Assembly (NCBI RefSeq): GCF_004210375.1
Contig: NC_134833.1
Coordinates: 148,358,127-148,422,126 of the forward strand
Direction of reading: 5' to 3'
DNA from: Tachypleus tridentatus
Taxonomy: Eukaryota; Arthropoda; Merostomata; Xiphosura; Limulidae
DNA length: 64,000 bases
Part shown: positions 1 through 62,345 of the stretch, in pieces
Numbering within the stretch: the stretch's first letter is position 1
Layout: each line of letters starts with the position of its first letter
Notes under the pieces: model-generated
Database searches by the model: none
Told to the model about the DNA's origin: nothing
Seen by the model: only the letters and a program-made list of their open reading frames with translations
Program-made: the position numbers and the translations under genes

Positions 1-3000
1 AGGCTGGCGAAGGCGCTACCACGGTCTCCAACGGAAGGTGTAGAACGTCGGCGTCGGGAGGCTGGCGAAGGCGCTACCACGGTCTCCAACGGAAGGTGTA
101 GAACGTCGGCGTCGGGAGGCTGGCGAAGGCGCTACCACGGTCTCCAACGGAAGGTGTAGAACGTCGGCGTCGGGAGGCTGGCGAAGGCGCTACCACGGTC
201 TCTCCAACGGAAGGTGTAGAACGTCGGCGTCGGGAGGCTGGCGAAGGCGCTACCACGGTCTCTCCAACGGAAGGTGTAGAACGTCGGCGTCGGGAGGCTG
301 GCGAAGGCGCTACCACGGTCTCTCCAACGGAAGGTGTAGAACGTCGGCGTCGGGAGGCTGGCGAAGGCGCTACCACGGTCTCCAACGGAAGGTGTAGAAC
401 GTCGGCGTCGGGAGGCTGGCGAAGGCGCTACCACGGTCTCTCCAACGGAAGGTGTAGAACGTCGGCGTCGGGAGGCTGGCGAAGGCGCTACCACGGTCTC
501 TCCAACGGAAGGTGTAGAACGTCGGCGTCGGGAGGCTGGCGAAGGCGCTACCACGGTCTCCAACGGAAGGTGTAGAACGTCGGCGTCGGGAGGCTGGCGA
601 AGGCGCTACCACGGTCTCCAACGGAAGGTGTAGAACGTCGGCGTCGGGAGGCTGGCGAAGGCGCTACCACGGTCTCTCCAACGGAAGGTGTAGAACGTCG
701 GCGTCGGGAGGCTGGCGAAGGCGCTACCACGGTCTCTCCAACGGAAGGTGTAGAACGTCGGCGTCGGGAGGCTGGCGAAGGCGCTACCACGGTCTCTCCA
801 ACGGAAGGTGTAGAACGTCGGCGTCGGGAGGCTGGCGAAGGCGCTACCACGGTCTCTCCAACGGAAGGTGTAGAACGTCGGCGTCGGGAGGCTGGCGAAG
901 GCGCTACCACGGTCTCCAACGGAAGGTGTAGAACGTCGGCGTCGGGAGGCTGGCGAAGGCGCTACCACGGTCTCTCCAACGGAAGGTGTAGAACGTCGGC
1001 GTCGGGAGGCTGGCGAAGGCGCTACCACGGTCTCTCCAACGGAAGGTGTAGAACGTCGGCGTCGGGAGGCTGGCGAAGGCGCTACCACGGTCTCTCCAAC
1101 GGAAGGTGTAGAACGTCGGCGTCGGGAGGCTGGCGAAGGCGCTACCACGGTCTCCAACGGAAGGTGTAGAACGTCGGCGTCGGGAGGCTGGCGAAGGCGC
1201 TACCACGGTCTCTCCAACGGAAGGTGTAGAACGTCGGCGTCGGGAGGCTGGCGAAGGCGCTACCACGGTCTCTCCAACGGAAGGTGTAGAACGTCGGCGT
1301 CGGGAGGCTGGCGAAGGCGCTACCACGGTCTCTCCAACGGAAGGTGTAGAACGTCGGCGTCGGGAGGCTGGCGAAGGCGCTACCACGGTCTCTCCAACGG
1401 AAGGTGTAGAACGTCGGCGTCGGGAGGCTGGCGAAGGCGCTACCACGGTCTCTCCAACGGAAGGTGTAGAACGTCGGCGTCGGGAGGCTGGCGAAGGCGC
1501 TACCACGGTCTCTCCAACGGAAGGTGTAGAACGTCGGCGTCGGAGGCTGGCGAAGGCGCTACCACGGTCTCTCCAACGGAAGGTGTAGAACGTCGGCGTC
1601 GGGAGGCTGGCGAAGGCGCTACCACGGTCTCCAACGGAAGGTGTAGAACGTCGGCGTCGGGAGGCTGGCGAAGGCGCTACCACGGTCTCTCCAACGGAAG
1701 GTGTAGAACGTCGGCGTCGGGAGGCTGGCGAAGGCGCTACCACGGTCTCCAACGGAAGGTGTAGAACGTCGGCGTCGGGAGGCTGGCGAAGGCGCTACCA
1801 CGGTCTCTCCAACGGAAGGTGTAGAACGTCGGCGTCGGGAGGCTGGCGAAGGCGCTACCACGGTCTCCAACGGAAGGTGTAGAACGTCGGCGTCGGGAGG
1901 CTGGCGAAGGCGCTACCACGGTCTCTCCAACGGAAGGTGTAGAACGTCGGCGTCGGGAGGCTGGCGAAGGCGCTACCACGGTCTCTCCAACGGAAGGTGT
2001 AGAACGTCGGCGTCGGGAGGCTGGCGAAGGCGCTACCACGGTCTCCAACGGAAGGTGTAGAACGTCGGCGTCGGGAGGCTGGCGAAGGCGCTACCACGGT
2101 CTCTCCAACGGAAGGTGTAGAACGTCGGCGTCGGGAGGCTGGCGAAGGCGCTACCACGGTCTCTCCAACGGAAGGTGTAGAACGTCGGCGTCGGGAGGCT
2201 GGCGAAGGCGCTACCACGGTCTCTCCAACGGAAGGTGTAGAACGTCGGCGTCGGGAGGCTGGCGAAGGCGCTACCACGGTCTCCAACGGAAGGTGTAGAA
2301 CGTCGGCGTCGGGAGGCTGGCGAAGGCGCTACCACGGTCTCCAACGGAAGGTGTAGAACGTCGGCGTCGGGAGGCTGGCGAAGGCGCTACCACGGTCTCC
2401 AACGGAAGGTGTAGAACGTCGGCGTCGGGAGGCTGGCGAAGGCGCTACCACGGTCTCTCCAACGGAAGGTGTAGAACGTCGGCGTCGGGAGGCTGGCGAA
2501 GGCGCTACCACGGTCTCTCCAACGGAAGGTGTAGAACGTCGGCGTCGGGAGGCTGGCGAAGGCGCTACCACGGTCTCTCCAACGGAAGGTGTAGAACGTC
2601 GGCGTCGGGAGGCTGGCGAAGGCGCTACCACGGTCTCTCCAACGGAAGGTGTAGAACGTCGGCGTCGGGAGGCTGGCGAAGGCGCTACCACGGTCTCTCC
2701 AACGGAAGGTGTAGAACGTCGGCGTCGGGAGGCTGGCGAAGGCGCTACCACGGTCTCTCCAACGGAAGGTGTAGAACGTCGGCGTCGGGAGGCTGGCGAA
2801 GGCGCTACCACGGTCTCCAACGGAAGGTGTAGAACGTCGGCGTCGGGAGGCTGGCGAAGGCGCTACCACGGTCTCCAACGGAAGGTGTAGAACGTCGGCG
2901 TCGGGAGGCTGGCGAAGGCGCTACCACGGTCTCCAACGGAAGGTGTAGAACGTCGGCGTCGGGAGGCTGGCGAAGGCGCTACCACGGTCTCCAACGGAAG

Positions 3001-6000
3001 GTGTAGAACGTCGGCGTCGGGAGGCTGGCGAAGGCGCTACCACGGTCTCTCCAACGGAAGGTGTAGAACGTCGGCGTCGGGAGGCTGGCGAAGGCGCTAC
3101 CACGGTCTCTCCAACGGAAGGTGTAGAACGTCGGCGTCGGGAGGCTGGCGAAGGCGCTACCACGGTCTCTCCAACGGAAGGTGTAGAACGTCGGCGTCGG
3201 GAGGCTGGCGAAGGCGCTACCACGGTCTCCAACGGAAGGTGTAGAACGTCGGCGTCGGGAGGCTGGCGAAGGCGCTACCACGGTCTCTCCAACGGAAGGT
3301 GTAGAACGTCGGCGTCGGGAGGCTGGCGAAGGCGCTACCACGGTCTCTCCAACGGAAGGTGTAGAACGTCGGCGTCGGGAGGCTGGCGAAGGCGCTACCA
3401 CGGTCTCTCCAACGGAAGGTGTAGAACGTCGGCGTCGGGAGGCTGGCGAAGGCGCTACCACGGTCTCCAACGGAAGGTGTAGAACGTCGGCGTCGGGAGG
3501 CTGGCGCTAGGCGCTCTCTCCAACGGAAGGTGTAGAACGTCGGCGTCGGGAGGCTGGCGAAGGCGCTACCACGGTCTCTCCAACGGAAGGTGTAGAACGT
3601 CGGCGTCGGGAGGCTGGCGAAGGCGCTACCACGGTCTCCAACGGAAGGTGTAGAACGTCGGCGTCGGGAGGCTGGCGAAGGCGCTACCACGGTCTCCAAC
3701 GGAAGGTGTAGAACGTCGGCGTCGGGAGGCTGGCGAAGGCGCTACCACGGTCTCTCCAACGGAAGGTGTAGAACGTCGGCGTCGGGAGGCTGGCGAAGGC
3801 GCTACCACGGTCTCCAACGGAAGGTGTAGAACGTCGGCGTCGGGAGGCTGGCGAAGGCGCTACCACGGTCTCTCCAACGGAAGGTGTAGAACGTCGGCGT
3901 CGGGAGGCTGGCGAAGGCGCTACCACGGTCTCTCCAACGGAAGGTGTAGAACGTCGGCGTCGGGAGGCTGGCGAAGGCGCTACCACGGTCTCCAACGGAA
4001 GGTGTAGAACGTCGGCGTCGGGAGGCTGGCGAAGGCGCTACCACGGTCTCTCCAACGGAAGGTGTAGAACGTCGGCGTCGGGAGGCTGGCGAAGGCGCTA
4101 CCACGGTCTCCAACGGAAGGTGTAGAACGTCGGCGTCGGGAGGCTGGCGAAGGCGCTACCACGGTCTCTCCAACGGAAGGTGTAGAACGTCGGCGTCGGG
4201 AGGCTGGCGAAGGCGCTACCACGGTCTCTCCAACGGAAGGTGTAGAACGTCGGCGTCGGGAGGCTGGCGAAGGCGCTACCACGGTCTCTCCAACGGAAGG
4301 TGTAGAACGTCGGCGTCGGGAGGCTGGCGAAGGCGCTACCACGGTCTCTCCAACGGAAGGTGTAGAACGTCGGCGTCGGGAGGCTGGCGAAGGCGCTACC
4401 ACGGTCTCTCCAACGGAAGGTGTAGAACGTCGGCGTCGGGAGGCTGGCGAAGGCGCTACCACGGTCTCTCCAACGGAAGGTGTAGAACGTCGGCGTCGGG
4501 AGGCTGGCGAAGGCGCTACCACGGTCTCCAACGGAAGGTGTAGAACGTCGGCGTCGGGAGGCTGGCGAAGGCGCTACCACGGTCTCCAACGGAAGGTGTA
4601 GAACGTCGGCGTCGGGAGGCTGGCGAAGGCGCTACCACGGTCTCTCCAACGGAAGGTGTAGAACGTCGGCGTCGGGAGGCTGGCGAAGGCGCTACCACGG
4701 TCTCTCCAACGGAAGGTGTAGAACGTCGGCGTCGGGAGGCTGGCGAAGGCGCTACCACGGTCTCTCCAACGGAAGGTGTAGAACGTCGGCGTCGGGAGGC
4801 TGGCGAAGGCGCTACCACGGTCTCCAACGGAAGGTGTAGAACGTCGGCGTCGGGAGGCTGGCGAAGGCGCTACCACGGTCTCTCCAACGGAAGGTGTAGA
4901 ACGTCGGCGTCGGGAGGCTGGCGAAGGCGCTACCACGGTCTCCAACGGAAGGTGTAGAACGTCGGCGTCGGGAGGCTGGCGAAGGCGCTACCACGGTCTC
5001 TCCAACGGAAGGTGTAGAACGTCGGCGTCGGGAGGCTGGCGAAGGCGCTACCACGGTCTCCAACGGAAGGTGTAGAACGTCGGCGTCGGGAGGCTGGCGA
5101 AGGCGCTACCACGGTCTCTCCAACGGAAGGTGTAGAACGTCGGCGTCGGGAGGCTGGCGAAGGCGCTACCACGGTCTCTCCAACGGAAGGTGTAGAACGT
5201 CGGCGTCGGGAGGCTGGCGAAGGCGCTACCACGGTCTCCAACGGAAGGTGTAGAACGTCGGCGTCGGGAGGCTGGCGAAGGCGCTACCACGGTCTCTCCA
5301 ACGGAAGGTGTAGAACGTCGGCGTCGGGAGGCTGGCGAAGGCGCTACCACGGTCTCTCCAACGGAAGGTGTAGAACGTCGGCGTCGGGAGGCTGGCGAAG
5401 GCGCTACCACGGTCTCTCCAACGGAAGGTGTAGAACGTCGGCGTCGGGAGGCTGGCGAAGGCGCTACCACGGTCTCTCCAACGGAAGGTGTAGAACGTCG
5501 GCGTCGGGAGGCTGGCGAAGGCGCTACCACGGTCTCCAACGGAAGGTGTAGAACGTCGGCGTCGGGAGGCTGGCGAAGGCGCTACCACGGTCTCTCCAAC
5601 GGAAGGTGTAGAACGTCGGCGTCGGGAGGCTGGCGAAGGCGCTACCACGGTCTCCAACGGAAGGTGTAGAACGTCGGCGTCGGGAGGCTGGCGAAGGCGC
5701 TACCACGGTCTCCAACGGAAGGTGTAGAACGTCGGCGTCGGGAGGCTGGCGAAGGCGCTACCACGGTCTCTCCAACGGAAGGTGTAGAACGTCGGCGTCG
5801 GGAGGCTGGCGAAGGCGCTACCACGGTCTCTCCAACGGAAGGTGTAGAACGTCGGCGTCGGGAGGCTGGCGAAGGCGCTACCACGGTCTCTCCAACGGAA
5901 GGTGTAGAACGTCGGCGTCGGGAGGCTGGCGAAGGCGCTACCACGGTCTCTCCAACGGAAGGTGTAGAACGTCGGCGTCGGGAGGCTGGCGAAGGCGCTA

Positions 6001-8157
6001 CCACGGTCTCCAACGGAAGGTGTAGAACGTCGGCGTCGGGAGGCTGGCGAAGGCGCTACCACGGTCTCCAACGGAAGGTGTAGAACGTCGGCGTCGGGAG
6101 GCTGGCGAAGGCGCTACCACGGTCTCTCCAACGGAAGGTGTAGAACGTCGGCGTCGGGAGGCTGGCGAAGGCGCTACCACGGTCTCTCCAACGGAAGGTG
6201 TAGAACGTCGGCGTCGGGAGGCTGGCGAAGGCGCTACCACGGTCTCTCCAACGGAAGGTGTAGAACGTCGGCGTCGGGAGGCTGGCGAAGGCGCTACCAC
6301 GGTCTCTCCAACGGAAGGTGTAGAACGTCGGCGTCGGGAGGCTGGCGAAGGCGCTACCACGGTCTCCAACGGAAGGTGTAGAACGTCGGCGTCGGGAGGC
6401 TGGCGAAGGCGCTACCACGGTCTCTCCAACGGAAGGTGTAGAACGTCGGCGTCGGGAGGCTGGCGAAGGCGCTACCACGGTCTCCAACGGAAGGTGTAGA
6501 ACGTCGGCGTCGGGAGGCTGGCGAAGGCGCTACCACGGTCTCTCCAACGGAAGGTGTAGAACGTCGGCGTCGGGAGGCTGGCGAAGGCGCTACCACGGTC
6601 TCCAACGGAAGGTGTAGAACGTCGGCGTCGGGAGGCTGGCGAAGGCGCTACCACGGTCTCTCCAACGGAAGGTGTAGAACGTCGGCGTCGGGAGGCTGGC
6701 GAAGGCGCTACCACGGTCTCTCCAACGGAAGGTGTAGAACGTCGGCGTCGGGAGGCTGGCGAAGGCGCTACCACGGTCTCTCCAACGGAAGGTGTAGAAC
6801 GTCGGCGTCGGGAGGCTGGCGAAGGCGCTACCACGGTCTCTCCAACGGAAGGTGTAGAACGTCGGCGTCGGGAGGCTGGCGAAGGCGCTACCACGGTCTC
6901 CAACGGAAGGTGTAGAACGTCGGCGTCGGGAGGCTGGCGAAGGCGCTACCACGGTCTCTCCAACGGAAGGTGTAGAACGTCGGCGTCGGGAGGCTGGCGA
7001 AGGCGCTACCACGGTCTCTCCAACGGAAGGTGTAGAACGTCGGCGTCGGGAGGCTGGCGAAGGCGCTACCACGGTCTCCAACGGAAGGTGTAGAACGTCG
7101 GCGTCGGGAGGCTGGCGAAGGCGCTACCACGGTCTCCAACGGAAGGTGTAGAACGTCGGCGTCGGGAGGCTGGCGAAGGCGCTACCACGGTCTCCAACGG
7201 AAGGTGTAGAACGTCGGCGTCGGGAGGCTGGCGAAGGCGCTACCACGGTCTCTCCAACGGAAGGTGTAGAACGTCGGCGTCGGGAGGCTGGCGAAGGCGC
7301 TACCACGGTCTCTCCAACGGAAGGTGTAGAACGTCGGCGTCGGGAGGCTGGCGAAGGCGCTACCACGGTCTCTCCAACGGAAGGTGTAGAACGTCGGCGT
7401 CGGGAGGCTGGCGAAGGCGCTACCACGGTCTCTCCAACGGAAGGTGTAGAACGTCGGCGTCGGGAGGCTGGCGAAGGCGCTACCACGGTCTCTCCAACGG
7501 AAGGTGTAGAACGTCGGCGTCGGGAGGCTGGCGAAGGCGCTACCACGGTCTCCAACGGAAGGTGTAGAACGTCGGCGTCGGGAGGCTGGCGAAGGCGCTA
7601 CCACGGTCTCTCCAACGGAAGGTGTAGAACGTCGGCGTCGGGAGGCTGGCGAAGGCGCTACCACGGTCTCCAACGGAAGGTGTAGAACGTCGGCGTCGGG
7701 AGGCTGGCGAAGGCGCTACCACGGTCTCCAACGGAAGGTGTAGAACGTCGGCGTCGGGAGGCTGGCGAAGGCGCTACCACGGTCTCTCCAACGGAAGGTG
7801 TAGAACGTCGGCGTCGGGAGGCTGGCGAAGGCGCTACCACGGTCTCCAACGGAAGGTGTAGAACGTCGGCGTCGGGAGGCTGGCGAAGGCGCTACCACGG
7901 TCTCTCCAACGGAAGGTGTAGAACGTCGGCGTCGGGAGGCTGGCGAAGGCGCTACCACGGTCTCTCCAACGGAAGGTGTAGAACGTCGGCGTCGGGAGGC
8001 TGGCGAAGGCGCTACCACGGTCTCTCCAACGGAAGGTGTAGAACGTCGGCGTCGGGAGGCTGGCGAAGGCGCTACCACGGTCTCTCCAACGGAAGGTGTA
8101 GAACGTCGGCGTCGGGAGGCTGGCGAAGGCGCTACCACGGTCTCTCCAACGGAAGGT
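1..8157 (+). repeat. Highly homogeneous 60/58-bp tandem array
   Basis: About 137 near-identical units fill the first 8.16 kb. The common unit is 60 bp with 39 G/C bases and eight CpG. A second class is 58 bp, lacking one TC of the CTCT run, and is scattered irregularly (for example near 140, 378, 556, 914, 2395, 2871, 7841). Single oddities are a 1-bp loss near 1543 and a rearranged unit near 3505-3517. Point substitutions are almost absent, unlike the diverged arrays of copies B and E, which implies recent expansion or strong homogenisation. Confidence 0.97.
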
Positions 8158-8163
8158 CATTAA
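1..8163 (+). CDS. Copy A: giant repeat-protein gene, 3' part only, frame interrupted as sequenced
   Basis: This is the 3' part of the largest family member; its start lies left of the window. It consists wholly of tandem units encoding GVERRRREAGEGATTVSPTE and ends, as in the sister copies, with GH and a TAA stop at 8161-8163. About 48 of some 137 units lack a TC in the ggtctctcc segment and are 58 bp long. Each moves the frame, and one of the three frames has a TAG in every unit, so no single reading frame crosses the array. The last coherent stretch, about 7853-8163, reads five units in the family frame. If the 2-bp losses were sequencing or consensus errors, the array would encode roughly 2,700 residues. 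If they are real, the copy is a pseudogene or an expanded satellite. No known family is recognised; a role as secreted peptide precursor or structural repeat protein is inference. Confidence 0.6.
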
Positions 8164-8520
8164 CTAGAACTATGGACTCTTTTTAATAAAATATTGTGGT
8201 GTCATTCGCTTATTTGTAACAATTGTGTTATCTGTATAAATTAAAATTGTACAATTCTTTATCGTTCTTTAAGAACTGGTGTTTCGGAAGTTTTCCTTGG
8301 TTTATGAAACTTCATTCAACAGCACCACGAAAAAGCTTCCTTTGTAATAAAGGAAAGATGCATCTACAGTTACTGTAATTCAGTGTTGATACCCGTAATG
8401 TACATACATAACCAAATTTATATCGGTCTGTATTTCTATTCCTTCTCAAAAAACCTATTACAAACTTCACTTTAAAACCGAAAAACTTTCCTTCACTCTG
8501 ATACAATTATTACAGCGTTT
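8164..8520 (+). promoter_or_regulatory. Copy A 3' UTR and 3' flank with AATAAA
   Basis: The segment after the TAA is conserved after all five gene copies. It contains a poly(A) signal AATAAA at 8185-8190, about 22 bp past the stop, followed by the TTGTGGTGTCATTCGC segment and a shared flank containing AATAAAGG near 8347. The match to the sister copies fades near 8520, where the satellite begins. Cleavage probably falls shortly after 8200, by analogy with animal poly(A) sites. Confidence 0.75.
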
Positions 8521-21345: not shown

Positions 21346-21430
21346 TTATGCGCATGCGCTATTTCAGAGATGACAAAATTCATCAAAGACGAGTTGTATA
21401 AATACCAGCAGATGAGAAGAAGGAGATGTT
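21345..21430 (+). promoter_or_regulatory. Core promoter of copy B (TATA box, GCGCATGCGC palindrome)
   Basis: A TATA box TATAAATA lies at 21397-21404, about 70 bp before the ATG; with usual TATA spacing, transcription would start near 21425-21435. The surrounding GACGAGTTGTATAAATACC segment is conserved before C, D and E. TGCGCATGCGCT at 21349-21360 matches the NRF-1-type palindrome; the equivalent sites in C, D and E are altered (begin GAGCATGC). Confidence 0.75.
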
Positions 21431-21473
21431 TATAGTTTTAGTTATTCTATACGTATTTTAGAGTGTCGAAACG

Positions 21474-22103
21474 ATGGAATGTAAGATTGTATTAGCAATT
21501 TTGTTTTTATATTTTAACTTCACGTCGTTGCATTTTTATCCTACAGACCCATCTACATCCACGGTATTCGTTACGGACGATAACCAAATGACTGGTGATT
21601 TAGAACGTCAGCGTCGCGAGGCTGGCGAAGGCGCTACCACGGTCTCCAACGGAAGGTGTAGAACGTCGGCGTCGGGAGGCTGGCGAAGGCGGTACCACGG
21701 TCTCTCCAACGGAAGGTGTAGAACGGCGGCGTCGAGAGACTGGCGAAGGCGCTATCACGATCTCTCCAAGAGAAGGTGTAGAACGGCGGCGTCGGGAGGC
21801 TGGCGAAGGCCCTACTACGGTTTCTCCAACGGAAGGTGCAGAACGTCGGCGTCGGGAGGCACGCGAAGGCGCTTCCACGGTTTCTCCAACGGAAGGTGCA
21901 GAACGTCGGCGTCGGGAGGCACGCGAAGGCGCTACCACGGTTTCTCCAACGGAAGGTGTAGAACGTCGGCTTCGGGAGGCTGGCGAAGGCGATACCACGG
22001 TTTCTCCAACGGAAGGTCATTAACTAGAACTATGAACTCTTTTAATAAAATATTGTGGTGTCATTCGCTCATTTGTAACAATTGTGTTATCTGTATAAAT
22101 TAA
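21474..22103 (+). CDS. Copy B: repeat-protein gene with intact leader; frame switch in unit 1
   Basis: An ATG in the context GAAACGATGG opens 209 codons. The leader MECKIVLAILFLYFN looks like a signal peptide, followed by a Thr/Asp linker ending MTGDLERQRREAGEGATTVS. The first repeat is a 58-bp unit, so translation then leaves the family frame and continues through six more units as GRCRTSASGGWRRR-type repeats, one Cys per unit. It passes the family stop at 22021-22023 and ends at TAA 22101-22103. In the family frame the product would be about 180 residues ending PTEGH. Whether the 2-bp loss is real or an error decides which protein is made. A 66-bp GTAAG...CTACAG segment (21481-21546) could also be an in-frame mini-intron covering the leader. 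Confidence 0.6.
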   Translation: MECKIVLAILFLYFNFTSLHFYPTDPSTSTVFVTDDNQMTGDLERQRREAGEGATTVSNGRCRTSASGGWRRRYHGLSNGRCRTAASRDWRRRYHDLSKRRCRTAASGGWRRPYYGFSNGRCRTSASGGTRRRFHGFSNGRCRTSASGGTRRRYHGFSNGRCRTSASGGWRRRYHGFSNGRSLTRTMNSFNKILWCHSLICNNCVICIN

Positions 22104-38795: not shown

Positions 38796-38830
38796 TATAA
38801 ATACCAGCAGATGAGAAGAAGGAGATGTTT
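38796..38830 (+). promoter_or_regulatory. Core promoter of copy C
   Basis: TATAAATA at 38796-38803, 70 bp before the ATG, within the same conserved block as in copy B. The upstream palindrome is degraded (GAGCATGCCC). Confidence 0.75.
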
Positions 38831-38872
38831 ATAGTTTTAGTTATTCTATACGTATTTTAGAGTGTCGAAACG

Positions 38873-39650
38873 ATGGAGTGTAAGATTGTATTAGCAATTT
38901 TGTTTTATATTTTAACTTCACATCGTTGCATTTTATCCTACAGACCCATCTACATCCACGGTGTTCGTTACGGACGATAATCAAATGACTGGTGATTTAG
39001 AACGTCAGCGTCGCGAGGCTGGCGAAGGCGCTACCACGGTCTCTCCAACGGAAGGTGTAGAACGTCGGCGTCGGGAGGCTGGCGAAGGCGCTACCACGGT
39101 CTCTCAACGGAAGGTGTAGAACGTCGGCGTCGGGAGGCTGGAAGGCGCTACCACGGTCTCTCCAACGGAAGGTGTAGAACGTCGGCGTCGGGAGGCTGGG
39201 AAGGCGCTACCACGGTCTCCAACGGAAGGTGTAGAACGTCGGCGTCGGGAGGCTGGGGAAGGCGCTACCACGGTCTCTCAACGGAAGGTGTAGAACGTCG
39301 GCGTCGGGAGGCTGGGGAAGGCGCTACCACGGTCTCTCAACGGAAGGTGTAGAACGTCGGCGTCGGGAGGCTGGGGAAGGCGCTACCACGGTCTCTCCAA
39401 CGGAAGGTGTAGAACGTGGCGTCGGGAGGCTGGGGAAGGCGCTACCACGGTCTCTCCAACGGAAGGTGTAGAACGTCGGCGTCGGGAGGCTGGGGAAGGC
39501 GCTACCACGGTCTCTCAACGGAAGGTGTAGAACGTCGGCGTCGGGAGGCTGGGGAAGGCGCTACCACGGTCTCTCAACGGAAGGTGTAGAACGTCGGCGT
39601 CGGGAGGCTGGCGAAGCGCTACCACGGTTTCTCCAACGGAAGGTCATTAA
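38873..39650 (+). pseudogene. Copy C: repeat-protein gene, frameshifted in the leader and repeats
   Basis: ATG at 38873 and family stop TAA at 39648-39650. Compared with copy B, two T runs in the leader are one base shorter (about 38901-38906 and 38931-38934), and direct reading hits a stop about 36 codons in. The 11 repeat units carry many 1-2 bp losses (TCTCAACGG for TCTCCAACGG, CTGGAAGG for CTGGCGAAGG, GAACGTGGC), so the array is not open either. If GTAAG at 38880 to CTACAG at 38943 were spliced out, both leader indels vanish and the linker returns to frame, but the repeats remain broken. Dense homopolymer-type indels make assembly error a serious alternative. Confidence 0.75.
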
Positions 39651-40020
39651 CTAGAACTATGAACTCTTTTTTTTTTAATAAAATATTGTGGTGTCATTCG
39701 CTCATTTGTAACAATTGTGTTATCTGTATAAATTAAAATTGTACAATTCTTTATCGTTATTTAAGAACTGGTGTTTCGGAAGTTTTCCTTGGTTTATGAA
39801 ACTTCATTCAACAGCACCACGTAAAAGCTTCCTTTGTAATAAAGGAAAGATGCATCTACAGCTACTGTAATTCAGTGTTGATACCCGTAATGTACATACA
39901 TAACCAAATGTGTATCGGTCTGTATTTCTATTCTTTTCAAAAAACTTATTACAAACTTCGCTTTCAAATAACTTTCCTTCACACACTTTAATACAATTAT
40001 TACAGCGGTTTATTAAGCAT
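39651..40020 (+). promoter_or_regulatory. Copy C 3' UTR/flank with AATAAA
   Basis: Family 3' end. AATAAA is at 39677-39682, after a T run expanded to about 11 Ts compared with 4-6 in the sister copies. The remaining flank matches A and B. Confidence 0.7.
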
Positions 40021-50466: not shown

Positions 50467-50500
50467 TATAAAAACCAGTAGATGAGAAGAAGGAGAAGTT
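50467..50500 (+). promoter_or_regulatory. Core promoter of copy D
   Basis: TATAAAAA at 50467-50474, 70 bp before the ATG, in the conserved promoter block; the TATA core differs from B/C by one base. A GAGCATGCGCAA motif lies upstream. Confidence 0.72.
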
Positions 50501-50543
50501 TATAGTTTTAATTATTCTACACGTACTTTAGAGTGTTGAAACG

Positions 50544-51652
50544 ATGGCGTGTAAGATTGTATTAGCAATTTTGTTTTTGTATTTTAACCTCACGTCATTG
50601 CATTTTTACCTTACAGACCTATCTACATTCACGGTATTCGTTACCGACGATAACCAAATGACTGGTGATTTAGAACGTCGGCGTCGGGAGGCTGGCGATG
50701 GCGCTACCACGGTCTCTCCAACGAAAGGTGTCGGCGTCGGGAGACTGGCGAAGGCGTTACCACGGTCTCTCCAACGGAAGGTGTAGAACGTCGGCGCCGG
50801 GAGGCTGGCGAAGGCGCAAGCACGGTCTCTCCAACGGAAGGTGTAGAACGTCGGCGCCGGGAGGCTGGCGAAGGCGCAAGCACGGTCTCTCCAACGGAAG
50901 GTGTAGAACGTCGGCGCCGGGAGACTGGCGAAGGCGTTACCACGGTCTCTCCAACGGAAGGTGTAGAACGTCGGCGCCGGGAGACTGGCGAAGGCGTTAC
51001 CACGGTCTCTCCAACGGAAGGTGTAGAACGTCGGCGCCGGGAGGCTGGCGAAGGCGCAAGCACGGTCTCTCCAACGGAAGGTGTAGAACGTCGGCGTCGG
51101 GAGGCTGGCGAAGGCGCAAGCACGGTCTCTCAACGGAAGGTGTAGAACGTCGGCGTCGGGAGGCTGGCGAAGGCGCTAACACGGTCTCTCCAACGGAAGG
51201 TGTAGAACGTCGGCGTCGGGAGGCTGGCGAAGGCGCTAGCACGGTCTCTCCAACGGAAGGCGTCGGGAGGCTGGCGAAGGCGCTAGCACGGTCTCTCCAA
51301 CGGAAGGCGTCGGGAGGCTGGCGAAGGCGCTAGCACGGTCTTTCCAACGGAAGGCGTCGGGAGGCTGGCGAAGGCGCTAGCACGGTCTCTCCAACGGAAG
51401 GCGTCGGGAGGCTGGCGAAGGCGCTAGCACGGTCTCTCCAACGGAAGGCGTCGGGAGGCTGGCGAAGGCGCTAGCACGGTCTCTCCAACGGAAGGCGTCG
51501 GAGGCTGGCGAAGGCGCTAGCACGGTCTCTCCAACGGAAGGCGTCGGGAGGCTGGCGAAGGCGCTAGCACGGTCTCTCCAACGGAAGGCGTCGGGAGGCT
51601 GGCGAAGGCTGGCGAAGGCGCTACCACGGTCTCTCCAACGGAAGGTCATTAA
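50544..51652 (+). pseudogene. Copy D: repeat-protein gene, frameshifted in unit 2, with a 47-bp sub-array
   Basis: ATG at 50544 gives MACKIVLAILFLYFNLTSLH, a good signal-peptide-like leader, then the linker and a first unit (ERRRREAGDGATTVSPTKG). Unit 2 lacks 7 bp (GTGTCGGCG for GTGTAGAACGTCGGCG), so translation leaves frame and stops at 50784-50786 (80 residues). Units 3-10 are 59-60 bp. From about 51250 to 51600 eight units are shortened to about 47 bp by loss of the same 13 bp, an internally amplified derivative. The family stop is TAA 51650-51652. Gly/Ala/Thr codons vary (GCAAGCACG, GTTACCACG) in blocks, showing local duplication of unit groups. A truncated 80-residue secreted product is possible; otherwise it is a pseudogene. 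Confidence 0.75.
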
Positions 51653-52020
51653 CTAGAACTACGAACTCTTTTTAATAAAATATTGTGGTGTCATTCGCTC
51701 ATTTGTAACTTTTGTATTATGTGTATAAATTAAAATTGTACAATTCTTTATCGTTGTTTAAGAACTGGTGTTTCGGAAATTTTCCTTGGTTAATGAAACT
51801 TCATTCAACAGCACCACGTGAAGTCTTCATTGTAATAAAGGAAAGATGCATCTACAGTTACTGTAATTCAGTGATACCCGTAATGTACTTACATAACCAA
51901 ATGTGTATCGGTCTGTATTTCTATTCCTTCTAAAAAACCTATTACAAACTTCGCTTTAAAACCGATAAACTTTCCTTCACACACTCTGATACAATTATTA
52001 CAGCGTTTTTCTAAGCATTT
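51653..52020 (+). promoter_or_regulatory. Copy D 3' UTR/flank with AATAAA
   Basis: Family 3' end with AATAAA at 51674-51679; the flank matches A-C and E with small changes. Confidence 0.7.
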
Positions 52021-53261
52021 TATTCCTCAGGTCTCCATTTTGGTGTTATCAAATTCACAACCTAATGTCTATTTTTCTTCGTCTTGCTCTTTGAATTGTA
52101 CATGTCGTAATTTTACAAAAACATCGCATCCAAATCATATTTTTTTAACTGTTAGGCGTCGATGTCTCTCTTTTTCAACACTTTCATAAGTATTTGAGTT
52201 CCAAATCTTTATTCAAACCTTTTTTCTAAGAATTTATTTCTCAGATCTCCATTTTGCATTATATTACTCACTGCTTGACCTTCATGTCCCTATTCTTCAT
52301 CGTCTTGCTATCTATTTCACAACCAAATCTATACTTTTCTCCTTCTGTATATCTAACACCCAAATCTCTATTCTTCGTTGTATAACCAACACGTTCCCAC
52401 CCACATCTCCATTCTTCTTCGTCTTGCTAATTTATAATCATATATCTATTCTTCATAATTTTATAAAAATCTAGCATTCAGATCTTTACTCTTCAACGAC
52501 CTTTTAACTGTGTGACCTCTATATCTCTATTCTTCATCGTCTTGCTATGTATTTAACATCATAATCTCTATTCTTTCCTTCTCTCTTAGCATTTATTCCT
52601 CATATCTCCATTTTGCATTATCTCATCGACCGCACGATATCCAGGTCTCTTTTTTCTTATCCTCTACCTAACTATTTCACACCTAAATCTCTATTCTTCT
52701 CCTTTTACATATCTAACACCCAAATCTCTATTCTTCTTTCTATTACCAACCCTTTCCCACCCACATCTCTATTCTTTCTTCGTCTTACTATTTCAAATTC
52801 ATATGCTCTTCATCCATTTCTTTTGGGCCTGGCATGGCCTAGCGCGTTAAGGCGTGCGCTTCGTAATCTGAGGGTCGCGGGTTTGCGCCCGAGTCGCGCC
52901 AAACATGCTCACCCTTTCACCCGTGGGGGCGTTATGATGTGACGGTCAATCCCACTATTCGTTGGTAAAAGAGTAGCCCAAGAGTTGGCGGTGGGTGGTG
53001 ATGACTAGCTGCTTTCCCTCTAGTCTTACACTGCTAAATTAGGGACGGCTAGCACAGATAGCCCTCGAGTAGCTTTGTGCGAAATTCCAAAACAAACAAA
53101 CAAACAAACCATTTCTTTTAACTGTTTGACATCCATATCTATATTCGTCATTGCCTTGCTAATTGTTTGAGATCCAAATCTTTATTGATACTCTTTACTA
53201 AGAATTCATTCCTCAGATTTCCATTTTGCATTATCTTACTCAATGCTTGACATCCAGGTCT
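52020..53261 (+). repeat. CT-rich higher-order satellite, array D (short)
   Basis: Only about 0.95 kb of satellite remains, interrupted by a SINE at 52825-53108. It ends abruptly at about 53261, where it joins transposon-tail sequence instead of the conserved intergenic segment that follows the other arrays. Confidence 0.87.
52825..53108 (+). mobile_element. tRNA-derived SINE, full-length, with target-site duplication
   Basis: The head contains a box A-like TGGCCTAGCGCGTTAAGG and a box B-like GGGTTTGCGCCCGAG, followed by a unique body (GGTGGGTGGTGATGACTAGC) and a CAAA-repeat tail. The 11-bp sequence CCATTTCTTTT flanks it on both sides (52814-52824 and 53109-53119). It lies inside a satellite monomer. 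I associate this SINE with horseshoe crab sequences from memory, which needs a database check. Confidence 0.93.
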
Positions 53262-54456
53262 TTTCCAGTTCAAATTTGGCTATGAAAATACACACAGCTG
53301 ATGACAACGGGTTCAAGCGTGGAAGGAATAAAGATTTTAATGATAATCAAGTGGCAATTTGGAAATATTTAAAGCATGCTGAATAAATTATTTGAGTAAG
53401 ATATTTTTGTTGTTATTTTTAATCACACAAAATTATGGTGTGTAACGCGACATATAATTGGTTGTTAAAATATTTGAATCCCATCACTGTTCTAAACATT
53501 ACTGAATCTAACCAAACTGCGTCGTTTAACCAGTACGAAATAATGATAAAAATAATTTAACCAAATAGACACTCATGAACTGACATTAAAAGGAGTAAAA
53601 GTTTGAGATGTACATGAAGCTTCCTTTGTAATTGCAGATAAACGTAATTATCAATTTTAACATCCAGGAAAAAAATAAATTGACAGATTCATAAAATAAT
53701 AAAGTTTTTCGAAAGCTAGACTGCATGCACTCTTAAAGTTCGTAACATTTTTTAATATAGTTATACGCTGTAAATGTGAAAATGTTTTCATTTTTGATTC
53801 TGCAATTCAACAAAATTAAAGTACCAGGAAACAACTGAAGCTACACCGTATGTTGAAGAATGTTTACACACTAATTGGTGTTTAAAACTGGCATATTAGT
53901 TTTGGATCCAAAAACATTTAGTTTAAAATAAACAAATTCAAGTGTTACTCTCTTTTGTTTTTAGGAACGTTAATGGCATATCTAACTTGAGTATTGATAG
54001 ATTCTAAAGTAGCTGTAATAATAAAGTATTGGTATGATAAATTTACATTTACGATATGTAAGACGTGAGTTTATTTATATTTTTATAAATTTTTCATAAC
54101 GAATTCCATCAAATGATCATTAAATGCTGTCAGTATCCATACGCTCATGATTTCTTCCACAACTGAATTGAGATACAAACCAATCAACTAGAAAATAATG
54201 AGCATATTTCACATGAGATTTTCTTCACAAACTATGCATTTAACATTTTCCATATCCACACACAAATTGTTAAAACAATAAACCATTTCATTGTTCCTAA
54301 TTAAATTACATCTTCTAAACTACTTCTGAGACACGTTAATTCAGTATTGTTGACGGTCAATGGTTAAGTACTACGAGGTTACAATTGAAGGTCTATAATA
54401 TTTCGTGATTCGAACGTTTCGTAAACCTCAGAGATAAATGTCTACTCACTTTAGTG
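53262..54456. other. Shared upstream flank before hAT, copy E (starts in KIAA1586-like tail)
   Basis: Begins with the last part of the KIAA1586-like transposon (equivalent to 33557 onward) joined directly to satellite, then matches 33681-34817 with small deletions (for example about 130 bp near 54170-54200). No gene. Confidence 0.65.
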
Positions 54457-56745
54457 CAGTGTTTCTTAACCTTGTTAGAGGTACTGAACCCCAGAAGTTT
54501 CACTGAACCCTTCGTAATTGGAAAAATAAAATATACTTAACATAAGTAGATATTTTACTAATGCACAAAATGAGCCATGCATCAGTAACACATAATATTA
54601 CTGTGTTCAAAGAACAAAATCAACAAAACTTGGATTTCACACAAAAACAAAAACATAACTCAATGAATATTTACAGCAAATCAATGTGACTTTTGTTTTT
54701 GCCTTTCAGAGACAAGTTCAGAAATGCGCGGCTTCACCTTGGAAAGTGCCACTCTTATATCATTTTCGCAACAAAGTATGTTCCTTTTCTTCGTTTTTAT
54801 GTCTACCATCCTCGAAAAGGATTGCTCGCAAAGATATGTTGTAACAAACGGTATGATTATCTCAAGGGCTTTCTTAGCTATAAGAGGGTACGCTACGATT
54901 TGGTGACACCAGAACGTTGAAAGCGTTGTTGTTCTGAAAAGTGTCTGTTGAACCTAGCTCTGCTGAAGTTCAATGATTTCGTCGAGGTATTCATCATTGA
55001 CATCTACTATCGCAACGCTAAACGTGAACGGCTGTCTCATTCATGCTGGACATGACTTTCTGGTGAGGAAGTATCCGTCGAGAGACTTTGCAAGCTCATC
55101 TAAGTGCATGGCAATTGCTTGCTTCAGTTCCCCGAGTACAGAAATGTCTCCGATTTCAGACACATCTTCGATCTTACCTAAACAGTCGTCCAGCAGGGGA
55201 AAGTTTGCAAAGTTATGATTCTCTGTTCGTCGTTTCCATAACGGTAGCTTTTTTGAAAAGCCTTTAAGTGTTCTTCCGCTTCGATTATGTTGACTCCACC
55301 GACCTGCATCTGTTGATTGAGATGACTGAAAGCGTTGAAGATATCGTCCATGTACGCCAAAATGAGATTTTTCGAAGCAATCAGCATGACAATGTTGGTG
55401 CTCTTGCAAAAACAGGGCTAATTTCACACGCATGGCAAAATCACGATTCAGCACCTTTCCCCAGGATAACCAACGATCGATAGAATGGTACAGAAGTACC
55501 TTGACTTCAGAGCCCATTTCATTACATGGCAATTTGAAGATGCGGTGCTTCAGAGCACTATTTTGCACAAAGTTCACACATTCCACAACAATTTTTAATA
55601 CTTCTGACAGTTTTGAAGGCAAGGTTTTGTTGCCAACGCATGCCTGTGTAGATCACAGTGCATTACAACGATGTGGGTGCATCGGCTTTCACCAATGCAA
55701 CAAAACTAAAGTTTCGTTCCAGCATGACTGGAGATTTGTCCAAACAAACTGCAGAAACCATATCCTACGAAAGATCGTTGTCTCTGAAGAAGTCATCCAC
55801 AAGTTTCTTCACGTCGACTGCCTTAGTTGTTGTTGTAAGAGGAGGCTTACAAAATAAAAAATATCTTATCTCGTCGTTCTTCACATAGCCCACGAATACA
55901 ACGAGCTGGCTTAGATTGGAAACGTCAGTGGTCTGGTCGAGTTGAAGGCTGAATTTTGCTGCGCTTGAAATCAGATTTGCAACCACTTGAGCCAAGATGT
56001 CATCGCTCATGTCATCTATTCTGCTGCTGATGGTGTCATTTCAAAGAGAAATTTGGTATAACTTTTTTCAGCAGCTTTTCCCAGTATGACATTCGCCATC
56101 TTCAACGCAGCTGGTTTTAGGAGTGCTTTACCAATGGTATGTGGTTTGCCCTGCTTTGCGATCAAGTACGCAACTTTATACGATGCTGTGAGGATCGGTT
56201 TGTCAATGGATACAAAGCCGAGAACAGGCAAAGTAGCTGGCTCTCTTTACCTTGAATTCAGCAAGCGTTGTATTCTTGTATTTCCCATCTCCATGCAGCT
56301 TTAGGGAGTGTTCTCTTAGTTTTTTTAGTCTAGGTGCTAAACTAAAATTGCTCAACTTGGCATTGCAAATCATGCATTGAAAACGCTGACTCCCATCATG
56401 TTCCGTTATACACGTGAATCCATACTGTACGTATTCGTCCGACCACCTTTTGTTTTTGCTCGACATAGTTAGTATGAAGGAATTGAAAGATTAGGAGAAA
56501 AATAATAAAATGACAAACAATTACTACAGTCACAAGTCGACTACTAAGCGCACGAAGTTCCCTGCAGCACAGACATTAAGGCCAAGTGATGTGACGTGTC
56601 AGCCGCAGCCAATGATGGCCAAGTAGGCATGACGTTACGAATCATACGAGTGGAATGAACGGATCGGACACACACACAGTATGTGTGTTTTGACCTTCGC
56701 CGAACACCTGAGAATGACTCACCGAACCCCTGGGTTTCGCCACTG
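54457..56745 (-). mobile_element. ZBED5/FAM200-like hAT element, copy before gene E
   Basis: Bounded by CAGTGTTTCTTAACC and (inward) CAGTGGCGAAACCC with a perfect 8-bp duplication CTTTAGTG at 54449-54456 and 56746-56753. This is the most complete copy. Minus-strand frames 56203-56466 (MSSKNKRWSDEYVQYGFTC, BED-finger region), 56016-56231 (VLGFVSIDKPILTASYKVAY), 55765-56010 (MSDDILAQVVANLI, LQLDQTTDVSNLSQLVVFVG) and 55041-55622 (VLLYHSIDRWLSWGKVLNR, GFSKKLPLWKRRTENHNFAN) follow in order. They are out of frame with one another, so the transposase is broken. No C-terminal dimerisation block was clearly found. Confidence 0.93.
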
Positions 56746-56753
56746 CTTTAGTG

Positions 56754-57200
56754 AATTAAAGATATTTTCCTTATGACGAAATTGATAGTTTCAAATATGT
56801 TGGTACCGTCTGACGCTTGTTCTAAACTAGAATAACACAATTTGTGTTATTCAATTTTATATATCACACGAATTTGTCCATTGTGTTATTGTCCCTCGGT
56901 TAGGTAAGTAAATTTTTGGACTTACAACACTTACGTCCGGTATTATATTTTTCTAGAACAAAAAATACAGCTCTAAATAATGTGAGCTCTCATTTTAGGT
57001 CCTGTAAATTATGTTTAAAATACCTAACATACAAAATAATGTACTTAGTATCTAACCTCAATAAATACGAAAAATCACTAAACACAAAAACTAGGTAAAA
57101 CTACTAATAAACTTAAAAAATTGAATCAAGCCAGACAGAGATATAAAAGGACATGCCACTTCACCGAATACTGAATATTTCAGAAAGAAAATAATAAGAG
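56754..57200. other. Shared flank, copy E, ending at a deletion junction
   Basis: Matches 48168-48615 and contains the recurrent 60-codon frame at 56916-57098. At about 57196-57202 it jumps straight to the promoter-proximal CAGCAATCAACATT block, so the mariner and about 1.7 kb present before C and D are absent. Confidence 0.65.
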
Positions 57201-57316: not shown

Positions 57317-57350
57317 TATATATACCAGCAGATGAGAAGAAGGAGATGTT
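57317..57350 (+). promoter_or_regulatory. Core promoter of copy E
   Basis: TATATATA at 57317-57324, 70 bp before the ATG equivalent, in the conserved block; a weaker TATA core than TATAAATA of B and C. Confidence 0.65.
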
Positions 57351-57393: not shown

Positions 57394-57885
57394 ATGGAGT
57401 GAAAGATTGTATTAGCAATTTTGTTTTTATATTTTAACTTAACATCGTTGCATTTTTACCCTACAGACCCATCTACATCCACGGTATTCGTTACGGACGA
57501 TAATCAAATGACTGGTGACTTAGAACGTCGGCGTCGGAAGGCTGGCGAAGGCGCTACCACGGTCTCTCCAACGGAAGGTGTAGAACGTCGGCGTCGTGAT
57601 GCTGGCGAAAGCGCTACCACGGTCTCTCCAACGGAAGGTGTAGAACGTCGGCGTCGTGATGCTGGCGAAGGCGCTACCACGGTCTCTCCAACGAAAGGTG
57701 AAGAACGTCGGCGTCGGGAGGCTGGCGAAGGCGCTACCACGGTCTTTCCAACGAAAGGTGTAGAACGTCGGCGTCGGGAGGCTGGCGAAGGCGCTACCAC
57801 GGTCTCTCCAACGAAAGGTGTAGAACGTTGGCGTCGGGAGGCTGGCGAAGGCGCTACTACGGTCTCTCCAACGGAAGGTCATTAA
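57394..57885 (+). pseudogene. Copy E: repeat-protein gene, family frame intact but stop at codon 3
   Basis: The frame from ATG 57394 to TAA 57883-57885 is 163 codons and free of indels, but codon 3 is TGA (57400-57402) instead of the TGT of copies B and C. Downstream it reads LYFNLTSLHFYPTD, the linker and six units: ERRRRKAGEGATTVSPTEG, ERRRRDAGESATTVS, ERRRRDAGEGATTVSPTKGE and so on, ending PTEGH. The units differ from each other more than in A. The same base change removes the GTAAG donor-like site of the possible mini-intron. AATAAA in the 3' UTR is AGTGAA. Initiation at the Met in NQMTGD would give a leaderless repeat protein. This copy is the best view of the family frame, although it is probably a pseudogene. 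Confidence 0.8.
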
Positions 57886-58290
57886 CTGGAACTATGGACT
57901 CTTTTTAGTGAAATATTGTGGTGTCATTTGTAACTTTTGTATTATGTGTATAAATTGAAATTGTCAATTCTTCATCGTTCTTTAAGAACTGGTGTTTCGG
58001 AAGTTTTCCTTGATTAATGCAACTTCATTGAACAGCACCACGTAAAGGCTTCGTTGTAATATAGGAAAGATGCATCTACAGCTACTGTAATTCAGTGTCC
58101 TTTCCATTTTAATAAAGGAAAGATGCATCTACAGTTACTGTAATTCGGGGTTGATACCCGTAATGTACATACATAACCAAATGTGTATCGGTCTGTATTT
58201 CTATTCCTTCTCAAAAAAACCTATTACAAACTTCGCTTTAAAACCGAAACTTTCCTTCACACACTTTAATACAATTATTATGCGTTTTTC
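57886..58290 (+). other. Copy E 3' flank, poly(A) signal lost, internal duplication
   Basis: The position of AATAAA in the sister copies reads AGTGAA (57907-57912). About 40 bp containing GGAAAGATGCATCTACAG are present twice (about 58063-58097 and 58110-58145), the second preceded by AATAAA at 58111-58116, which could act as a substitute signal some 225 bp past the stop. Confidence 0.65.
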
Positions 58291-61200
58291 TAAGCATTTT
58301 ATTCCTCAGATATCCATTTTGGTGTTATCTAATTCACAACCTAATGTCTATTTTTCTTCGTCTTGCTCTTTGAATTGTACATGTCATAATTTTACAAAGA
58401 CATCGCATCCAAATCATATTTTTTAACTGTTAGACATCCATGTCTTTATTCTACTTGTACTCTATTCAAATATCTATTCTTGCCATTCTGTATATCCAAC
58501 ACCCAAAACTGTATTCTTCGTTGTATTACTCACCACTTCGCATCTATTCCTTCTTCGTTTTACTATTCGAAATTCATCGACCTGTCCTTCACATTTTTAT
58601 TATAATCTGGCATCCAGATTTTTATTTTTCACATAACGTTTAATTGTTTCACATCCATAATACTATTCTTCCTCGTCTTCATAAGTATTGTATGTAGAAA
58701 TTTGTTCTTTCCTTTTTTTTTAAATTTTTATTCCTCAGATCTCCGGTTTGCATTATCTTACTGACTGCATGATATCAAGGTCTCTATTTTCCATCCTCTT
58801 CCTAATTATTTAAAACTGAAATCTCAATTCTTACCATTCTATATATCTAACACCCAAATATCTATTGTTCGTTCTATTATCCATTACTTTCCACCTACAT
58901 CTCTATTCTTCTTCGTTTTTCAAATTTGTAACCGTATATCTATTCTAAATAATTTTATAAAAATCTGGCATTCAGATCCTAATTATTCAACTACCTTTTA
59001 ACTGTGTGACCACTTCTCTATTCTTCATCGTCTTCCTATGAACTTAACATCATAATCTCTATTCTTACATTTTTTCAAAGTACTTATTCCTCGAATCTAC
59101 ATTTTGCATTATCTTGCCAACCACATGATATCCAGGTCTCAATTTTTCATCCTCTTTCTAACTATTTCACACTCAAATCTCAATTTTTACCATTCAGTGT
59201 ATCTAACACCCAAATATCTATTCTTTGTTGTATTACCCACCAATTCCTACCCACATCTCTATTCTTCGTCTTGCTATTTGAAATTCGTATATCTATTCTT
59301 CATATTTTATAAAAATCTGTCATGCAAATCTTATTTTTCACCTTTATTTTAACTGTTTGACATCCATATCTCTCTTTTTCAACACTTTCATAAGTATTTG
59401 AGTTCCAAATCTCTATTCAAACCTTTTTTCTAATAATTTATTTCTTAGATCTCCATTTTGCATTAAATTACCCACTGCTTGACCTTCATGTCCCTATTCT
59501 TCATCGTCTTGCTATCTATTTCACAACCAAATCTATATTTTTTCTCCTTCTGTATATCTATCATCCAAATCTCTATTCTTCGTTGTATAACCAACAAGGC
59601 CACATCTCCATTTTTCTTCGTCTTGCTTTTTTATAATCATATATCTATTCTTCATAATTTTATAAAAAATCTAGCATTCAGATCTTTACTCTTCAACGAC
59701 CTTTTAACTGTGTGACCTCTATATCTCTATTCTTCATCGTCTTGCTATGTATTTAACATCATAATGTCTATTCTTTCCTTCTCTCTAAGCATTTATTCCT
59801 CATATCTCCATTTTGCATTATTTTATCGACCGCACGATATCCATGTCTCTTTTTCTAATCCTCTACCTAACTATTTCACACCCAAATCATTATTCTTCTC
59901 CTTTTACATATCTAACACCCAAATCTCTATTCTTCTTTCTATTACCAACCACTTCCCACCAACATCTCTATTCTTTTTTCGTCTTGCTATTTCAAATTCA
60001 TATGCTCTTCATCATATTTTTACAAAGGCATGGCATCCAAATCTTTATTTTCCATTTATTTTAACTGTTGGACATCCATATCTATATTCGTCATTGCCTT
60101 GCTAATTGTTTGAGATCCAAATCTTTATTGATACTCTTTACTAAGTATTCACTCCTCAGATTTCCATTTTTCATTATCTTACTCAATGCTTGACATCCAC
60201 GTCTCTATTCTTGAATGTTTTTAACATTTTAACTATTTAACATTCAAATATCTATTTTTGCCATTCTATATATCTCACACCCAAATATTTATTCTTCGTT
60301 GTGTTCATACATTTTTTCTTTGTATTTATTCCTCAGATCTCCATTTTGCATTATCTTATTGAACGTTGACATCCAAGACTCCATTCCTGAACTCTTTCTA
60401 ACTATTTGACATTCAAATAACTATTCTTGCCATTCTATATATCTAACACTCAAATCTCTATTCTTCGTTGTATTATTCACCACTTCCCATCCATACTTCT
60501 ATTCTTCTTCGTTTTACTATTTGAAATTCATAGACCTCTCATTCACATTTTTATAAAAATCTGGCAACCAGATCTTTATTTTTCACATAACTTTAATTGT
60601 TTCACATCCGTATCTTTATTCTTCGTCGTCTTTTTTAGTATTGGATGTAGAAATATCTATTCTTACCTTTTTTTAAATATTTATTCCTCAGATCTCCATT
60701 TTGCATTATGTTTCCACGTCTTGGCATCCAAGTATCTATTTTACATCCTCTTCCTAACTATTTCATACTCAAATCTCTATTCTTCCCATTATATATATCT
60801 ATCACCCAAATCTCTATTATTCAATGTATTACCCTCAACCTCCACCCACATCTCTATTCTTCTTCATCTTGCTATTTGAAATTCATATATCTATTCTTCA
60901 TAATTTTACAAAAAATCTGGCATCGAGATCTTTATTTTCACCTTTATTTTGACTGTTTGACATTTATATCTATATTTTTCATCGCCTCCTAAATGTTTGA
61001 GATCGAAATCTTTATTCATACCTTTTTCTGAGTAATTATTTATCTGATCTCCACTTTCCATTATCTACCCACCACTTCACAGGCAGGTCTCTATTTTTCA
61101 TCCTTTTCCTAACTATTTGATACTCAAATCTCTATTTTTGTCATTCTCTATATCTATCACCCAAATATCTATTCTTCAATGTATTACCCACAACATCCAC

Positions 61201-62345
61201 CCACATCTCTATTCTTCTTCATCTTGCTATTTAAAATTCATATATCTTTTTTTCACATTTTTATAACCATCTGGCTTCCACATCTTTATTGTTCATTAAC
61301 TTTTTAACTGTTTGACATTCATATCTTTATTCTTCATTGCCTTGCAAAGTATATGACATCCGAAACTCTATTCATACCTTTTTCTAAGTATTTATTTCTC
61401 AGTTCTCCATTTCGTATTATCTTACCGACCTTTTCACATCCAGGTCTCTGTTCTTCATCGCATTGCTAACTGTTTGACACCCGAATCTCCATTCTGGTTC
61501 TTCTATCAAATTAACACCCAAAACTCTATTATTAGTTGTATTATTCACCACTTCCCACCCAGATCTCTACTCTTCTTCGTCTAGCTATTTGAAATTCATC
61601 AATCTACTCTTCATATTATTATAACTATCTCGCTTCCATATTTTTATTGTTCACCTACCTTTTAACTGTTTGACGTCCACATCTCTCTTGTTTATCGTCT
61701 TACTAATTATTTGTCATCCGAATCTCCATTCTTTACCCTTTTTTTTAATATTTATCCCTCACACTTCCATTTAGCAATATCTTACCGACCGCTTGACATC
61801 CAGGTCTCTATTTTTCATCGTCTTGCTGACGATTTGACACTCAAATCTCTATTCTTGTCCTTCTATCTATTAGACTCCTAAATCTATATTTTTTTCTTCT
61901 ATTACCAACCACTTTCCAATCGGATCTCCATTCTTCATCGTGTTACTATTTGAAATTCATACATATATTTTTCATATTTTTATAACTACCTGGCTCCCAC
62001 ATCATTTTTCTTTACCTACGTTCTAACTGTTTAACATCCACATCTCTATTCTTTATCGTCTTGCTTACTATTTAACATCCAAATATTTATTCTTCACCTA
62101 TTTTCTAACTACTTATCCCTCGCATCTCCATTTTGCATTATCTTACCGACTGCTTGACATCCACATCTCTATTTTTAATCGTCTTGCTAACTATTTCACA
62201 CCCAAATTCCTATTCTTCATTGTATTACCGACCACTTCTCACCCAGATCTATATTCTTCATCGTCTTACTATCTGAACTACATATATCTATTTTTCATAA
62301 TTTTATATATATCTAACATCCATATCGCTATTCTTAATCAACTTA
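58290..62345 (+). repeat. CT-rich higher-order satellite, array E
   Basis: About 4 kb of the same satellite, uninterrupted by transposons, with well-kept order of the ~40-bp monomers. 60600-60900 is nearly identical to 10680-10980 of array A, suggesting recent exchange or conversion between arrays. Confidence 0.9.

Follow-up and report, generated by a model that had tools for sequence, protein, structure and literature searches.

A five-copy family of putative secreted repeat-protein genes, apparently unnamed and largely damaged, in the genome of Tachypleus tridentatus

Positions 57394 to 57885 of a 64,000-nucleotide stretch of Tachypleus tridentatus DNA (the window, to whose numbering all positions refer) hold a hydrophobic leader followed by a short tandem repeat. 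The question raised by this locus is whether it encodes a secreted repeat protein, a precursor of many small peptides, or no product at all. The initial annotation described an intact secreted-type protein, from which cleavage at a tetrabasic site in every 20-residue unit would free identical acidic 16-mers. The repeat array claimed there was confirmed as a 60-bp direct repeat at 57521-57879, with 6.0 copies, 94% matches and a score of 627, the reporting threshold being 50. Six copies matching at 94% were judged too alike to have arisen by chance. The window carries five copies (A1 to A5) of one gene-like unit, all on the + strand, and the locus in question is A5.

A TATA-like box, TATATATA, was found in A5 at 57317..57324 (+), 77 bases 5' of the conserved ATG. 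It is followed by the leader (57394..57520, +), composed of a signal-peptide-like stretch and a linker, with an in-frame TGA as its third codon. The hydrophobic core of the leader reaches a mean hydropathy of up to 3.1 over 9 residues. The proposed layout of leader, linker and repeats was recognized in so far as the array comes after a hydrophobic leader and a linker, but the start reads Met-Glu-STOP (ATG GAG TGA from 57394). The listed open frame begins 3' of this TGA, with a TTG at 57421. The array itself (57521..57879, +) consists of six 60-bp units in which the family frame is open, and the region of the array end and stop codon (57880..57925, +) reads Gly-His-stop and lacks AATAAA. Three of the six reading frames are open throughout the array, and open frames by themselves are therefore weak evidence here. 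A functional gene would have an open frame from the conserved ATG; in A5 this frame is closed at codon 3. A5 is a damaged copy, a pseudogene, and its normal start can no longer yield a product. The description of A5 as an intact copy had to be abandoned because of this stop and the loss of AATAAA.

The basic run is spaced exactly 20 residues apart, as had been stated, but it reads RRRR in only five of the six A5 units. The sixth unit has RWRR, the only Arg change there, which sits at the X of R-X-R-R. R-X-R-R is retained in 6/6 units, and the suggested furin consensus thus stands as a consensus match and a lead, not as evidence of cleavage. The 16-mer expected to be freed, EAGEGATTVSPTEGVE, is present in exact form in none of the six A5 units as judged from the translation, and the exact 20-mer is likewise found in 0/6; release of identical 16-mers from A5 is not supported. 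The unit as quoted represents the family consensus, above all that of A1. Acidity held for the hypothetical 16-mer, which is strongly acidic with a computed pI of 4.05, but not for the whole 20-residue unit, which is nearly neutral (computed pI 6.38). Each basic run in A5 is preceded by Glu, leaving no Gly for amidation.

A1 (1..8190, +) starts beyond the window edge; its array occupies 1-8157 with 137 units, followed by a stop and AATAAA at 8185. A TATA-like box, an ATG, the leader and an array were identified in A2 (21397..22049, +; ATG 21474, array 21601-22017, then a stop and AATAAA at 22044), A3 (38796..39682, +; ATG 38873, array 38998-39644, AATAAA at 39677) and A4 (50467..51679, +; ATG 50544, array 50671-51646, AATAAA at 51674). 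A2 to A5, whose 5' ends lie inside the window, have a common promoter and hydrophobic leader, and the TATA-like box (TATAAATA in A2 and A3, TATAAAAA in A4) is located exactly 77 bases 5' of the ATG in all four. The array, its stop and the 3' flank are common to all five copies, and AATAAA is found at most 45 bases from the stop in A1 to A4. A search of the window with the leader gave no further good match, the next best (E 0.023) lying inside the downstream repeats. The repeat number is 6 in A5, 7 in A2, 11 in A3 and, within the window, 137 in A1.

None of the four complete copies (A2 to A5) can be read from ATG to stop in the family frame. The frame is lost in A2 in unit 1 by a 2-base deletion, in A3 first in the leader and a second time in the array, and in A4 after unit 1 by a 7-base deletion. 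Past the frameshift in A2 the remaining array stays open in a second frame, and the resulting 209-residue open reading frame (21474-22103) gives a basic Cys/Arg/Trp repeat of the CRTSASGGWRRRYHGLSNGR type. A5 is the cautionary case, being the sole complete copy that keeps the family frame in its array, yet with a stop two codons past its start. A4 was judged to be an older pseudogene, and A4, then A5, to have left the coding regime. For A1, A2 and A3, either the frameshifts are recent or the genes are intact and the assembly misreads them. The locus would be a cluster of copies that arose by recent segmental duplication from a single short gene, apparently without introns; we infer both the lack of introns and which of the copies are alive.

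The claim of a multi-copy family with a secretory-type leader was strengthened by codon-position-specific substitution in the leader frame. In the alignment of A2 to A5, 11 of the 16 variable leader sites were found at codon position 3 (P about 0.004), compared to an upstream control of 200 bases in which 24 variable sites were spread 9/7/8 over the same phases (8/24 at position 3). When A4 was left out, a subset picked post hoc with the data already seen, all eight sites were at position 3 (P about 0.00015), and the control gave 5/14. Silent changes made up 9/16 of the total, whereas a share of 0.28-0.31 was expected with the transition bias set to 4 and 8 (P 0.016-0.032); lower biases give a smaller expected share. 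All these statistics are based on 16 sites. Between A2 and A3 all four leader changes are silent, and no others are present in 126 bases except for two one-base gaps in A3, where a single T is missing in each of two T runs. Five of the eight changes private to A4 alter the amino acid, and the three private to A5 include the stop and one Phe-to-Leu change. Silent differences amount to 3/5 between A3 and A5 and 6/13 between A4 and A5, modest shares that were attributed to the decay of A4 and A5. Substitution in the leader versus the promoter was 3.2% vs 4.1% for A2-A3 and 10.2% vs 8.1% for A4-A5. Since the raw divergence of the leader is not below that of the promoter, the case for coding rests on codon position and not on overall conservation. 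Judged from the position-3 bias and the excess of silent changes, the leader was most likely once translated and under selection.

The arrays gave a different picture, and peptide-level constraint on the repeat was not supported. Counts were made on exact 60-mers (88/137 units in A1, 6/7 in A2, 2/11 in A3, 6/9 blocks in A4 and 6/6 in A5) over 57 positions, excluding each unit's final codon and the last unit of A3. Of 31 distinct substitutions 11 were silent, with a share of about 0.32 expected (P 0.38). With the silent share this near expectation, the repeat sequence shows no sign of constraint. The silent counts in the three frames, 6, 5 and 5 of 17 in A2 and 2, 4 and 1 of 9 in A5, do not favour the family frame; in the third frame of the A5 array two changes would create stops. 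Array units are short by 1, 2, 7 or 13 bases, and the indels are mostly of frame-shifting length. In A3, 9 of the 11 units measure 57-59 bp, and by reading one unit is 3 bases short, apparently through a 1-base and a 2-base loss. A4 contains a 47-bp unit, 13 bases short and not a multiple of 3, which was amplified to 8.5 copies, and by reading an apparent 10-base duplication near the array end.

A recently duplicated family of genes for secreted VNTR proteins, glue- or mucin-like in design and mostly decaying, is the explanation we prefer, with about an even chance of being correct. The ancestral gene would have carried a TATA-like box, a signal-peptide-like leader, a linker, n repeats, Gly-His-stop and a polyadenylation signal, and its product would be a secreted, disordered protein of 20-residue Glu/Arg/Thr repeats. 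Four Arg are balanced in each unit by four Glu, next to three Thr, one Ser and one Pro. The charges of RRRR versus Glu, together with Thr/Ser in every unit, could give a self-associating and possibly O-glycosylated polymer, and unequal exchange may change the repeat number, as it does in material proteins of the glue, mucin or silk-like kind. Secretion, material function and glycosylation are presumed. The coding constraint in the leader and the highly variable repeat number among copies are as expected for a material protein, and the homogenised and expanded state of A1, the decay of A4 and A5 and the position-3 bias of the leader are in favour of the preferred explanation. Against it are a Thr/Ser/Pro content of 5/20, modest for a mucin, the neutral array changes, and the finding of 0/4 complete copies with both the start and the family frame. 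These last two features also speak for a wholly dead family, which makes no functional protein now and in which a GC-rich minisatellite still expands as DNA and the frameshifts are real. The units short by 1, 2, 7 and 13 bases and the amplified 47-bp unit of A4 point the same way. We nevertheless regard a wholly dead family as unlikely, because the four silent leader differences out of four between A2 and A3 are hard to reconcile with long-dead copies, and because the TATA-like box and AATAAA are retained in A2, A3 and A4, and AATAAA also in A1. A leader that is mostly a short intron (GTAAG...CTACAG), in a protein that is not secreted, is very improbable. By reading, GTAAG is located just 3' of the start in A2 to A4, and the pyrimidine-rich, acceptor-like CTACAG is present in A2 and A3, in A2 66 bases on, a frame-keeping length. 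However, the four sites inside that vary among A2, A3 and A5 (21482, 21521, 21524 and 21539) are all at codon position 3, and GTAAG is absent from A5.

A1 stands out among the copies by its make-up. It consists of 87 identical 60-mers and a terminal 60-mer, 47 identical 58-mers, one 59-mer and one 53-mer, with zero substitutions across the 88 sixty-mers at the 57 positions compared. All 58-mers (47/137 units) lack the same CT, and the order of 60- and 58-mers is random (66 runs vs 62.7 expected; autocorrelation at lags 1-59 never exceeds 0.18). Either A1 expanded very recently and its CT run is hypermutable, or its consensus is wrong. In the latter case A1 to A3 would be intact and the 57-59-bp units would be consensus errors in CT or homopolymer runs, a tentative reading that is compatible with the preferred explanation and that we consider quite possible, if somewhat doubtful. 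The random order of the CT losses among substitution-free 60-mers, the lack of the same CT in unit 1 of A2 and in one A3 unit, and the single T bases missing from two T runs in the A3 leader all speak for it. On the other hand, the CT is kept in every A5 unit and in every A4 unit listed, so that sequencing error of a general kind would not explain everything and the error would have to be array-specific. The lesions of A4 and A5 also differ in kind, and in the flanking duplicates 16 of 40 one-base gaps fell in runs of at least 3, with no obvious excess (9,926 aligned bases, counted from nine partly overlapping comparisons). An intact A1, its 58-bp units being assembly errors, would give one transcript with at least 137 tetrabasic-bounded 20-mers that are essentially identical, an extreme tandem secretory polyprotein; this we hold to be improbable. 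If true, the product would have at least 2,700 residues and deliver one peptide in huge dose or form a charge-alternating polymer, and it is the reality of the short units of A1 that decides between a giant gene and a giant relic. There is a slightly better, still small chance that the family encodes a multi-peptide precursor, cut at every R-X-R-R and freeing many copies of an acidic neuropeptide or defence peptide. Such a precursor would account for the coding signature in the leader and for the basic run every 20 residues, with consensus sites bounding each copy in A5 (6/6). It fits poorly with the Glu before each basic run and the missing amidation Gly, with an A5 that would release no exact 16-mer and with arrays showing no excess of silent changes. 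A near-identical, conserved peptide is not seen in A5, while A1 has its 87 identical 60-mers. To our knowledge, the freed sequence is more like acidic spacers than known active peptides, and the at least 137 units of A1 would be extreme for multi-peptide precursors. Spider linear-peptide precursors with 13 or more peptides are described in the accessible text of PMC8290080. As far as the sequence goes, cleavage into peptides is possible but unsupported.

All comparisons with known systems concern likeness of design, seen in sequence features, and not kinship. According to the accessible text of PMC6352337, Drosophila glue genes have signal peptides and repeats rich in Thr, whose number is high and variable and reaches 86 in Sgs1 of D. 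melanogaster, and glue repeat regions were misassembled in one data set. The likeness to Sgs genes includes a signal peptide followed by long, variable Thr-rich repeats, clustered duplicates and repeats that diverge fast; several Sgs genes share a signal-peptide intron, as that text has it, and none is evident here (PMC6352337). Unlike Sgs, the unit found here is Arg/Glu-rich with one Pro, and the C-terminus is just Gly-His-stop, with no conserved C-terminal domain. The VNTR of MUC1 has a GC-rich DNA unit of 60 bp. The two also agree in a tandem unit of 20 residues and in having a second frame that is open across the repeat (PMC5074479, accessible text). Unlike in MUC1, no SEA or transmembrane domain was seen in the family. 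Its arrangement of a leader and repeats at basic sites is that of multi-copy neuropeptide precursors, which differ from it in that an amidation Gly is missing here and A1 has far more copies. In the spider PQM/iPQM precursors a leader is followed by repeated segments bounded by Arg with Glu nearby, and the E-RRRR-E run fits the PQM/iPQM motif definitions given in the accessible text of PMC8290080. The family lacks the alternation of cationic peptides with acidic linkers that marks the complex precursors of spider linear peptides; there is a single type of unit, with the acidic 16-mer (pI 4.05).

The initial annotation knew of no named family with this unit, and this was borne out by Pfam, which gave nothing above cut-off for the three family products tried. 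Sub-cutoff matches to DUF4805 (0.019) and PIG-P (0.096) were obtained for two of them, and none for the third. A phmmer search of PDB for a relative of solved structure returned seven designed 'Pizza' repeats with E values from 1.3e-8 to 0.15, which were taken as periodicity matches and rejected. Rfam gave 0 matches at gathering score, and 0 tRNAs were detected. DNA pattern scans gave 0 matches in viral contigs and 0 in genome contigs, collections of viruses and prokaryotes in which absence says little, and no relative was confirmed among the 38 and 116 pattern-matching stretches of the related-protein scans in virus and prokaryote collections. In the literature, three fragments of the repeat, each 8-9 letters long, were matched by 0 papers, and broader word searches brought up analogues only. 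On the basis of Pfam, PDB and the literature search of repeat fragments, the family is apparently unnamed. If it is alive elsewhere in the genome, its product would be a so far apparently unnamed secreted protein whose repeat unit alternates charges in an unusual way. Within this one cluster a coding minisatellite can be seen expanding, being homogenised and decaying.

The copies are located in larger segmental duplications, composed of common upstream sequence and downstream 355-bp-type repeats, and the duplication matches listed (at least 200 bp and at least 80% identity) reach 95.9%. Long degenerate repeats with a period of mostly about 317-357 bp are found 3' of each gene copy and were duplicated with it. 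They extend over about 8570-17800, 22400-26700, 40000-44000, 52000-52800 and 58430-64000, and are pyrimidine-rich on the + strand with a GC skew down to -0.55. Broken pieces of open reading frames at 34566-37104, 45745-48610 and 54312-57195 (-), 5' of A3, A4 and A5 respectively, were also duplicated with the gene and look like a BED-zinc-finger hAT-type transposase; six pieces were scanned, of which two gave zinc-finger matches, both below cut-off, and four gave none. An alignment break at 57195/57196 shows that A5 lacks about 1.6-1.7 kb present in A3 and A4, from some 200 bases 5' of the ATG. An open reading frame at 33202-33576 (+) has a weak match to a hAT dimerisation domain (Pfam E 0.039, below cut-off). 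At 40520-41071 (-) a remnant of a DDE_3-type transposase was observed (Pfam E 5.7e-05, below the curated cut-off), which we take to be Tc1/mariner-like. A 42-bp tandem array at 44443-45192 ends shortly before a 500-N gap at 45245-45744.
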